64,000 nucleotides of DNA, taken from Methanolacinia petrolearia DSM 11571. Its GTDB lineage: Archaea > Halobacteriota > Methanomicrobia > Methanomicrobiales > Methanomicrobiaceae. This document shows, in pieces, positions 21,026 to 56,553 of this stretch. The DNA lies in the NCBI RefSeq assembly GCF_000147875.1, contig NC_014507.1, positions 1,612,001-1,676,000 of the forward strand, given 5' to 3'. Both the position numbers and the translations under genes were made by a program. How positions within the stretch are numbered: the first letter of the stretch is position 1; the number at the start of each line of letters is the position of its first letter. Under the pieces are notes generated by a model. The model had not been told where the DNA came from, searched no databases, and saw only the letters and a list, made by a program, of their open reading frames with translations.

Positions 21026-21307
21026 GGCAACCCCCCGCCGCGGGTCGCTCCGCAGACCCGCGGATCGGCCCCGACCTCGGGGCCTCTCCTTTGCGATAAC
21101 CGCTCAGGGGATAGCGAGTATCCCCTGAGCGGAGAGATGCGGGATATTCCTAGCGTGTTTTACTGCAGAGAAAATTCATAAAAAAAACAAATTCAACAGC
21201 CCGGGGGACCCTTGCCGGTCCCTTGGGCGTGCCGTGAATGGCTATCTTAAGGCAAGGCCCCTGGGCAGGGGCCGTCCGGCGGCCCGGCCGCCGGTGCCGG
21301 GGTCGCC
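21026..21307 (+). repeat. Structured 282-bp non-coding element, copy A
   Basis: Ends are GGCAACCCC (21026-21034) and GGGGTCGCC (21299-21307), an imperfect terminal inverted repeat. Inside are six hairpins: H1 CCGCGGGTC/GACCCGCGG (21038-21063), H2 GGCCCCGA/TCGGGGCC, H3 a perfect 14-bp stem CCGCTCAGGGGATA/TATCCCCTGAGCGG (21100-21132), H4 GGGGGACC/GGTCCCTT with G-T pairs, H5 GGCCCC/GGGGCC and H6 CCGGCGGC/GCCGCCGG. Unpaired blocks AGCGTGT, TTCAACAG and GGCAAGGCCCC are also conserved. Copies B (51858-52138) and C (55602-55884) match in length, order and sequence. No reading frame is conserved. It could be a non-autonomous mobile element or a structured RNA. Confidence 0.88.
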
Positions 21308-50424: not shown

Positions 50425-51701
50425 AAACTACTGCGAATGCGACATGCCCCTTTTGCGGATGCCTCTGCGACGACCTCTCGGTCACTATCGAAGATAACAG
50501 GATTATCGCCGTCGACAACGGCTGTGCCCTTGCCAATGCAAAGTTTTTCGATGATAAAAGGCTCCAGCACCCGGTGATCCGTGAAAACAACCGGTTGAGA
50601 GAGTCATCATACGAGGAAGCAATAAAGATTTCAGCGGATCTGCTGAAAAATGCCGACAGACCTCTCTTCTTCGGCTGGAGCGGAACACAGGTCGAAGCAC
50701 AGTGCGCCGGGGTAAATCTTTGCGAAGTCCTCGGGGGAGTTATCGACAATACTTCTTCGATATGCCACGGGCCGTCCATTCTTGCGATACAGGAGGTAGG
50801 ACACCCCGGCTGTACGCTCGGGCAGGTGAAGAACAGGGCCGACCTCGTAATTTACTGGGGCTGCAATCCGTCGGAATCGCACCCGAGACATTTAAGCAAA
50901 TATACAACTTATGCATCGGGTTTTTTCGTGAAAAACGCCCACAGGGAGAGAAAACTGATCGTAGTGGATGTGAGAAAGACCGAATCGGCGGATCTCGCAG
51001 ACGAATTCGTACAGATTAATCCCGGCGGGGACTATGCCGTTTTGTCCGCACTCAGGGCGATAGTCCGCGGCAGATCGGATTTCATCCCGGAAACCGTTTC
51101 CGGAGTTCCGAAAGCCCAGCTAATAAGAATTGTCGATATCTGCAAAGATGCAAAATTCGGGGCAATTTTCTTCGGGCTCGGGCTGACGATGTCAGAAAAC
51201 AAATATAAAAACGTCCGGAATGCGATCGAACTGACGCGTGAACTCTCGCGGCACACCAAATTTACGATAACTCCCATGAGAGGACACTGGAATGTCTATG
51301 GTGCAAATGAAGCGTTTACATGGCTGACAGGGTATCCTTATGCCGTCGATTTTGCACGGGGAACCGCCTATTATAATCCCGGCGAGACGAGTGCCGTCGA
51401 TATTCTTGCAAGAAGGGAATGCGACGTCATGTTTGTCATCGGGAGCGATCCGGGTGCTCATCTCCCGAGAAAGTGCCTGGAATATATGTCGAAGATTCCC
51501 GTCATCCTGGTAGATCCGCACATAAACTGCACATCCGTCTTCGCCGACGTCCAGATTCCCGTGGCGATTGCAGGAATCGAGACGAGCGGGACCGCCTATC
51601 GTATGGACGGAGTTCCTCTTATGACGAAAAAACTGATTGAGACTGATTTTCCTACTGATACGGAGATAATAAACAGGATTCACGAAATTGTTGTGGGCTG
51701 A
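50421..51701 (+). CDS. Formylmethanofuran dehydrogenase subunit B, second copy
   Basis: A 426-residue FwdB/FmdB paralogue. The 4Fe-4S ligands are C9, C12, C16 and C35, and the metal-ligand cysteine is C115 in SSICHGPS. PMRGHWNVYGANE corresponds to PMRGHYNVTGSGE of the first copy. Extensive divergence across the whole length fits separate W- and Mo-isoenzymes, as in other methanogens with fwd and fmd sets; which is which cannot be decided here. Confidence 0.93.
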   Translation: MKTTANATCPFCGCLCDDLSVTIEDNRIIAVDNGCALANAKFFDDKRLQHPVIRENNRLRESSYEEAIKISADLLKNADRPLFFGWSGTQVEAQCAGVNLCEVLGGVIDNTSSICHGPSILAIQEVGHPGCTLGQVKNRADLVIYWGCNPSESHPRHLSKYTTYASGFFVKNAHRERKLIVVDVRKTESADLADEFVQINPGGDYAVLSALRAIVRGRSDFIPETVSGVPKAQLIRIVDICKDAKFGAIFFGLGLTMSENKYKNVRNAIELTRELSRHTKFTITPMRGHWNVYGANEAFTWLTGYPYAVDFARGTAYYNPGETSAVDILARRECDVMFVIGSDPGAHLPRKCLEYMSKIPVILVDPHINCTSVFADVQIPVAIAGIETSGTAYRMDGVPLMTKKLIETDFPTDTEIINRIHEIVVG

Positions 51702-51857: not shown

Positions 51858-52138
51858 GGCAACCCCTCGCCGCGTGCCACTCCGCTGGCCCGCGGATCGG
51901 CCCCGACCTCGGGGCCTCTCTATCATGATAAGCCACTCAGGGGATAGACGAGTATCCCCAGAGCGGCGAAACGCGGTAAATCCATAGCGTGTAAAAAGGA
52001 CGTCGCAAATCAATCTTACTTCAACAGCTTAGGGGACCCTCGCTGGTCCCCTGAGCGTGCAATGAGAGAACTATCTTAAGGCAAGGCCCCGAGGCCGGGG
52101 CCGTCCGGCGGTCTTTGGCCGCCGGTGCCGGGGTTGCC
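51858..52138 (+). repeat. Structured non-coding element, copy B
   Basis: 281 bases with perfect terminal inverted repeats GGCAACCCC (51858-51866) and GGGGTTGCC (52130-52138). The hairpins follow copy A in order: H1 CCGCGTGCC/GGCCCGCGG with one mismatch, H2 GGCCCCGA/TCGGGGCC, H3 with a GGGGATA/TATCCCC core, H4 GGGGACC/GGTCCCC, H5 GGCCCC/GGGGCC, H6 CCGGCGG/CCGCCGG. The left flank 51834-51857 (ending TCTTTCTTC) is shared with copy C. It lies between the second fwdB and the moeA genes. The surrounding gap 51702-52162 holds nothing else. Confidence 0.88.
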
Positions 52139-55458: not shown

Positions 55459-55512
55459 GCTCATGCGACCCCGGAGACCGGCGAGGGTCCCCCAGGCTGT
55501 TGAATTTGGTTT
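55459..55512 (-). repeat. Fragment of the structured element (copy D)
   Basis: Read on the minus strand, ATTCAACAGCCTGGGGGACC followed by CTCGCCGGTCTCCGGGGTCGC matches the H4 hairpin module and flanking TTCAACAG block of copies A-C. The rest of the element is missing. It lies 90 bases before copy C in the same orientation. Confidence 0.7.
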
Positions 55513-55601
55513 TGTTTGGAAATCCTGATCGAGACCTTTTAAATCCCCTACCTAAATTCCAATAAACTCTTTGGCACTTTGCTATCTACATATCTTTCTT
55601 C

Positions 55602-55884
55602 GGCAACCCCGGCACCGGCGGTCAAAGACCGCCGGACGGCCCCTGCCCAGGGGCCTTGCCCTGAGATTATTTTCTCATTGCACGCCCGGGGACCGACAAG
55701 GGTCCCCGGACTGTTGAAGTTAGATTTTTTCTCCGGTATTCAATTCCGGACACGCTTTGAATTCACCGCGTCCCGCCACGCAGGGGATACTCGTCTATCC
55801 CCGGAGTGGCCTATCACAATAGAGAGGCCCCGGGGTCGGGGCCGATCCGCGAGCCTGCTGTGCGGCTCGCGGCGAGGGGTTGCC
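55602..55884 (-). repeat. Structured non-coding element, copy C
   Basis: 283 bases in opposite orientation to copies A and B, with perfect terminal repeats GGCAACCCC (55602-55610) and GGGGTTGCC (55876-55884). In element orientation H1 is CCGCGAGCC/GGCTCGCGG, which compared with copy A shows paired changes that keep the stem. H3 (GGGGATA/TATCCCC core), H4, H5 and H6 (CCGGCGGTC/GACCGCCGG) are present. The 24 bases to its left match the left flank of copy B although the core is inverted. Confidence 0.88.
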
Positions 55885-55983
55885 AAAAATAGTGAAACTT
55901 GCCTTTAGGCCCACAAAGATTAGCGAAGAGCCTGGATTATTATGGCCATTAATCCAACAGCAGTATTGATGAATCCGTATGTC
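55885..55983. other. Short spacer after copy C
   Basis: No gene or recognisable site. It holds the downstream side of the zinc-ribbon protein gene. Confidence 0.3.
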
Positions 55984-56553
55984 TTAATAAAGACCCTTCA
56001 GTTTGTGCGGATCAAAACCCATAGCGACTAAAGCCTCGTCGCCGGACATGGGAGCACCGGCCTTATTAATGACTTTAATGCCGAGATTCATAATAGAAAA
56101 AGGAAGATTCAGTCCGAACATATCCACACATCGTTCTTCATGATATTGCATATTAACGTAGTTTCTGACAGTGCCCCTGTCGACGACGACATTCATCTTT
56201 TTCAGGACGCCGGAGACCCGGTTGAAAGGCATCGAACTGCCAAGGCTTACGCAGAGGTCCACAACAGGTATGCCCATTCTTGTCCCGGGATAGAACGGTT
56301 CGTAGGCATATGAGAGCCTCCCGCACTCATGGCAGAAAAATCTCTTGACAGCTACATCGATATAGTAAGGTTTTCCTTCGGACAGGACACAGGCGAAATG
56401 CTTCTTTTTAAAATCGTACCCGCGAATCTTACCCTTGCAATAAGGACACTTGTCAAGATTTTCAAATCGTATTCCCTCCATTCCCCATAGTGCAGCATTA
56501 ACAATTTCTGAAACTACCGGTGAAATCGAAGGGTCTCCTCTCATATTTACCAT
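55984..56553 (-). CDS. Zinc-ribbon protein with HTH, transposase-like
   Basis: A 189-residue protein. Two CxxC pairs form a zinc ribbon: CPYCKGKIRG at about residue 36 and FFCHECGRLSYAYEP at about 73. A helical part follows with VVDLCVSLGSSMPFNRVSGVLKKMNVVVDRGTVRNYVN, resembling the helix-turn-helix after the zinc ribbon of ISL3-like transposases. No catalytic DDE domain follows. It could be a domesticated transposase N-terminus or an independent regulator. The frame is intact. A TATA-like AAATATATAG lies directly before the start. Confidence 0.72.
   Translation of the reverse strand: MVNMRGDPSISPVVSEIVNAALWGMEGIRFENLDKCPYCKGKIRGYDFKKKHFACVLSEGKPYYIDVAVKRFFCHECGRLSYAYEPFYPGTRMGIPVVDLCVSLGSSMPFNRVSGVLKKMNVVVDRGTVRNYVNMQYHEERCVDMFGLNLPFSIMNLGIKVINKAGAPMSGDEALVAMGFDPHKLKGLY

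Follow-up and report, generated by a model that had tools for sequence, protein, structure and literature searches.

Paired hairpin units with opposite strand preferences in the interior of an ISL3-type MITE of Methanolacinia

The interiors of prokaryotic MITEs are commonly regarded as passive filler. In the telomere overhangs of linear Streptomyces replicons, the outward 3'-ended strand carries a series of hairpins at both ends; this likeness is a lead only, and the repeats considered here occur in many copies inside a chromosome, no linear replicon being known in this case. REP elements are reported to lie chiefly between convergent and unidirectional genes and have frequent G-T pairs, which was taken to indicate transcription (PMC3733652). 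Their paired form, the BIME or REPIN, shares with the elements described below two inverted hairpin modules, an intergenic and dispersed distribution, enrichment between convergent genes and G-T pairs in the stems (PMC3733652). On the other hand, the present elements are archaeal, their units consist of three hairpins and are ~110 bases long rather than 20-40 bp, and they are bounded by transposon ends.

The analysed stretch of DNA (the window) comprises 64,000 nucleotides of the Methanolacinia petrolearia DSM 11571 chromosome (G000, 2,843,290 bp; NC_014507.1, positions 1,612,001 to 1,676,000). A preliminary description, made from the sequence alone, had reported in it three copies, A, B and C, of a six-hairpin non-coding element. 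The copies, their coordinates and their hairpins were confirmed; the orientation of C, about which nothing had been said, is that of the minus strand (55884 to 55602). The core of the element matches its own reverse complement. It is composed of two inverted homologous units of ~110 bases each, with three hairpins per unit, flanking an AT-rich centre, and the outward end of each unit is GGGGTTGCC. The layout in the window is as follows, with the hairpins of copy A taken from the pair analysis.

21026..21307, plus strand: copy A, core (left unit, AT-rich centre, right unit); the position is also occupied in the sister species (G001)
21026..21132, minus strand: copy A, left unit (H1-H3); the functional strand is probably minus, outward to 21026
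21038..21063, no strand assigned: copy A, hairpin H1
21067..21084, no strand assigned: copy A, hairpin H2
21100..21132, no strand assigned: copy A, hairpin H3
21193..21307, plus strand: copy A, right unit (H4-H6); the functional strand is probably plus, outward to 21307
21199..21228, no strand assigned: copy A, hairpin H4
21256..21273, no strand assigned: copy A, hairpin H5
21276..21294, no strand assigned: copy A, hairpin H6
51858..52138, plus strand: copy B, core, with convergent genes on either side (stops at 51701 and 52163)
51858..51967, minus strand: copy B, left unit
52021..52138, plus strand: copy B, right unit
55573..55932, minus strand: copy C, entire MITE between ISL3-type terminal repeats, 360 bp
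55907..55932, minus strand: copy C, left terminal repeat GGCTCTTCGCTAATCTTTGTGGGCCT
55573..55598, minus strand: copy C, right terminal repeat, degraded, with outer bases ...TAGCAAAGTGCC
55602..55884, minus strand: copy C, core (left unit 55775-55884, right unit 55602-55717)
55469..55524, minus strand: extra right-unit copy beside C, a fragment

The homology of the units is retained in the family consensus, where the reversed left unit and the right unit are alike at 83 of 111 positions, and a profile of the right half picks up left halves on the opposite strand.

The hairpins were earlier ascribed to selection for a single-stranded fold, with a covariance analysis named as the test. The 46 full-length copies, drawn from two species, show changes on both sides in 24 of the 79 pairs, well above the number expected by chance (9.4±2.0 in shuffles, mean and sd), and none of the 500 shuffles reached 24. 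The paired cells make up 94.1% in these copies, compared to 38-48% in slid versions. The double changes described in H1 (CCGCGGGTC/GACCCGCGG versus CCGCGAGCC/GGCTCGCGG) and the G-C to A-T difference in H3 are present in the sequence. When the halves are considered separately (60 left and 66 right copies), covariation measures exceed the shuffles in each; the number of further pair types in the 60 left halves is not above the shuffles. Two candidate pairings were dropped: the closing stem P0 shows no covariation, and in the pairing of a loop with a linker (CCTTGCC with GGCAAGG) the loop varies while its partner is unchanged, as judged by inspection.

The two halves differ in the strand on which they tolerate wobble pairs. 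Parsimony on the Watson-Crick pairs, read on the plus strand, gives 45 changes to G·U and 15 to A·C in the right half, and 19 to G·U and 54 to A·C in the left half, so that on the minus strand the ratio of G·U to A·C in the left half is 54:19; these event counts are approximate, since the copies exchange sequence. Matching mutation classes in unpaired columns have no bias (65:75 on the right, 58:67 on the left). Tree-free sign tests by column go in opposite directions, 19 versus 4 on the right (p=0.003) and 5 versus 18 on the left (p=0.011). The predicted folding energy is better on the plus strand in 59 of 66 right halves and on the minus strand in ~47 of 60 left halves, and at one pair of the right half G·U is dominant (52/66). 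The opposite preferences imply that the ability to fold is preserved on the outward-running strand of each unit, which is the plus strand in the right unit and the minus strand in the left one. Thus the hairpins are maintained by compensatory change in a strand-specific manner, and selection for a single-stranded fold is backed both by the covariation, in the whole core and in its halves, and by the strand preference. By the same token, the molecule of six hairpins closed by its ends, as initially imagined, is not what is conserved: its halves are kept on opposite strands, and the ends GGCAACCCC/GGGGTTGCC, proposed as the closing stem, have mismatches at two positions in 17 and 19 of 45 sequences.

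Nor does the element terminate at GGCAACCCC/GGGGTTGCC. Beyond the core, sequence conservation extends on the left side as far as GGCTCTTCGCTAATCTGTGTGGGTA and on the right side as far as GGCTCTTCGCTGTTTCATGTGGGTAA in reversed reading, and the mobile element is bounded by terminal repeats GGCTCTTCGCT..., both of which were found in 21 copies at a distance of 345-539 bp. In related genomes, autonomous elements of the ISL3 type (PF01610) have the ends GGCTCTTCGCTAAATCCTGTGGGTGAT and GGCTCCTCGCTGTTTTATGTGGGTAA. Insertion sequences of this type with matching terminal repeats occur in the genomes G007, G012 and G208; compared to the PF01610-bearing elements of G007, the right end of the MITE is identical at 24 of 26 bases and the left end is close. 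Among the 21 elements, three have perfect 8-bp target duplications and four have 7/8, and the 8-bp flanks match on average at 4.86 of 8 positions, versus 3.19±0.32 under shuffled pairing. An empty site for the copy at 997.6 kb was found in a third Methanolacinia species (G002), with the flanks adjacent and an 8-base overlap in the search coordinates. An open reading frame crosses the core in one of 42 classified loci. On sequence comparison, these features identify the element as an ISL3-type MITE, the core being its interior. They bear out the suggestion of a non-autonomous mobile element, for which many dispersed copies and empty sites in relatives had been named as the check: there are ~50 copies and one empty site, in addition to the terminal inverted repeats and target duplications. 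The accompanying idea that the transposase reads the hairpins finds no support, because the autonomous relatives have matching terminal repeats and the one that was examined, about 1.35 kb with a gene of 411 aa, has no room for hairpins.

The element thus resembles ISL3-family MITEs in its GGCTCTTCGCT... repeats, 8-bp AT-rich target duplications, lack of a gene, high copy number and autonomous relatives with matching ends in the same archaeal family. It differs from them in its conserved and covarying interior, made up of two inverted units with three hairpins each, in the lack of an ISL3 transposase (PF01610) in the host, as well as in G001 and G002, and in the IS481-type left end of some copies. 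The latter have TATCCCGAAATAATTTGACA... on the left, as in an IS481-like insertion sequence of G014 (C1:245013-245983, L223, ~0.97 kb); the ends of the G014 element correspond to this second end type of the family, and its transposase was recognized at E=2e-58, which is under the curated cut-off. In G009, a member of another genus than Methanolacinia, both ends of the copies are nearly identical to those of the G014 element, the right one at 31 of 33 bases. These copies are similar to IS481-type MITEs in having both IS481-type ends with a core resembling the left unit, but they are few, degraded and devoid of the right unit. Since some copies have ISL3-type and others IS481-type ends, the core is carried by two types of transposon ends.

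The M. petrolearia genome contains at least 52 core copies at 43 loci, of which 36 have both halves, 11 the right half only and 5 the left half only, and G001 contains at least 52 core copies at 45 loci. The search of the order with covariance models, suggested earlier, was run on 232 genomes with models of the halves. It did recover dispersed copies, but nearly all of them in two species: matches were found in three genomes, those of both Methanolacinia species and, weakly, G009. The genome of G002, which is 84% complete, has no copies. Exact patterns had no matches in viral contigs and in a collection of species genomes that may omit records near the genome of the window. An essential function is not likely for elements restricted to two species with weak traces in a third.

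Many loci, A, B and C included, are common to M. petrolearia and G001. The core is inverted between the species at locus B, whose G001 counterpart (C43:91653-91905) has the core in the opposite orientation relative to window positions 51858-52138, and at two other loci. At 18 shared pairs the mean identity is 0.897 for cores and 0.930 for flanks, compared to 0.867 for random copies, and in only 4 of these 18 cases is a core most similar to its ortholog. Such small excess over random copies points to strong exchange between copies. The positions of the elements are old, and their contents are swapped among copies.

Like REPs, the elements are intergenic and lie mostly between convergent or unidirectional genes. 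As assigned by a simple purpose-made caller of coding potential, the flanking genes are convergent at 20, co-directional at 18 and divergent at 4 of the 42 classified loci of M. petrolearia; the respective numbers in G001 are 20, 16 and 7. Convergent loci prevail over divergent ones when tested against equality (p=0.0015 and p=0.019, respectively), although these are not independent observations, as many loci are common to both species, and the convergent excess is not significant when compared to gaps of >150 bp in the window (p=0.06). The enrichment may only reflect the loss of insertions into promoter regions. Co-directional loci have no bias in the orientation of the element relative to the genes (8:10), as expected of a mirror-symmetric device.

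One explanation, which we consider about evenly balanced between acceptance and rejection, is a bidirectional hairpin pair similar to a BIME or REPIN, acting in RNA near the 3' ends of genes and spread by MITE ends. The units would be active in single-stranded form, with RNA as the most likely molecule. With transcription from either direction, the last unit met would be the well-folding one, and would endow the transcripts of the flanking, often convergent, genes with a structured 3' region, by analogy with the proposal made for paired REP elements (BIMEs). The elements would have been spread by transposases of the ISL3 type that these genomes no longer contain, with later shuffling of cores through recombination between copies. 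No U-run terminator was found downstream of the units, and no clear TATA box is seen by eye in the AT-rich centre. More tentatively, and with some doubt, the elements may be described as a family of hairpin pairs selected in RNA in both directions of transcription, residing on ISL3 and IS481 ends and similar to REPINs without a RAYT. Membership in the RAYT-linked REPs or BIMEs proper was rejected: the Y1/RAYT transposase (PF01797) is absent from the host genome, the palindromes differ in size, and neither the GTAG nor the CGTC tag stands out in the consensus on inspection. An IS200/IS605-type single-stranded DNA element was also rejected, as there is no Y1 transposase and yet terminal inverted repeats are present.

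A serious rival, even if we consider it rather unlikely, assigns the hairpins to single-stranded DNA in the life of the element itself: transferred strands or resected 3' tails, outward and 3'-ended, would fold and thus protect the ends or guide transposition or repair. It accounts for the fact that the favoured strand of each half runs outward 5' to 3', a symmetry expected of transposon ends, and the units are close to the terminal repeats; yet no such hairpins accompany the terminal repeats of the examined autonomous ISL3-type relative, and a unit resides also inside the IS481-ended elements of G009. Folding energies for DNA give the same strand preference, whereas the pair dominated by G·U (52/66) fits RNA better than DNA.

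Paired changes in short hairpins can arise by template switching, with no need for selection. An ordinary MITE with functionless hairpins, whose apparent compensation comes from template switching, slippage and gene conversion, would agree with the strong exchange between copies (cores at shared loci 0.897 versus 0.867 for random ones; ortholog best in 4/18). This seems improbable to us. Template switching works on double-stranded templates and is blind to wobble; by itself it gives no reason for a strand on which G·U is preferred to A·C, and the opposite preferences of the halves, missing from unpaired columns, are not to be expected from it. Finally, a single structured non-coding RNA gene of ~280 nt, transcribed from a promoter of its own (TATAAAA, located ~25 bases upstream of GGCAACCCC), is very improbable, as the TATA-like sequence, although suitably spaced in many of the copies, is located on the inner side of the ISL3-type terminal repeat, at its edge, is missing with other left ends (A and B included) and degraded in C, while no plus-strand fold is conserved in the left half, the closing stem has no covariation, and matches occur in only 3 of the 232 genomes of the order.

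The view that no described family matches holds for the core, as far as Rfam is concerned, but not for the ends, which place the element among ISL3-type MITEs. In the window, Rfam 15 at the gathering score yields only a tRNA, and nothing convincing is found for the core at E<=10. A literature search produced no description of archaeal ISL3 MITEs or of repeats in this species. Here the interior of a MITE bears a measurable signature of strand-specific selection in two mirror-image halves, in ~50 copies mostly downstream of genes. This makes it possible to test directly if 3' RNA structure is provided by small mobile repeats in archaea. The comparison of G·U with A·C changes can be transferred to other repeat families, where it would indicate whether selection acts on folding and on which strand.

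Several minor observations concern individual loci. To the right of the window, at 1680-1696 kb (L045), there are tandem clusters of up to 5 copies in a row with a spacing of ~320-350 bp, which have a partial counterpart on contig C39 of G001. The copies at 522054, 765792 and 1570142 (L031, L033 and L040) contain in the core centre an insertion of ~50-65 bp that includes GTTTCATG palindromes and may represent a small nested element. Copy C adjoins a gene encoding a protein of 189 aa (window 55984-56553, minus strand) that starts with a zinc-ribbon-like CxxC..CxxC pattern and has no Pfam match. At window positions 55460-55573 there is a repeated module GGGATCTAAAGG..CCTGATCCGGATTTTCATGTCAAA, with further copies at 538054, 1689878 and 1727847; it occurs after some right ends, or in place of the left half before the right half.
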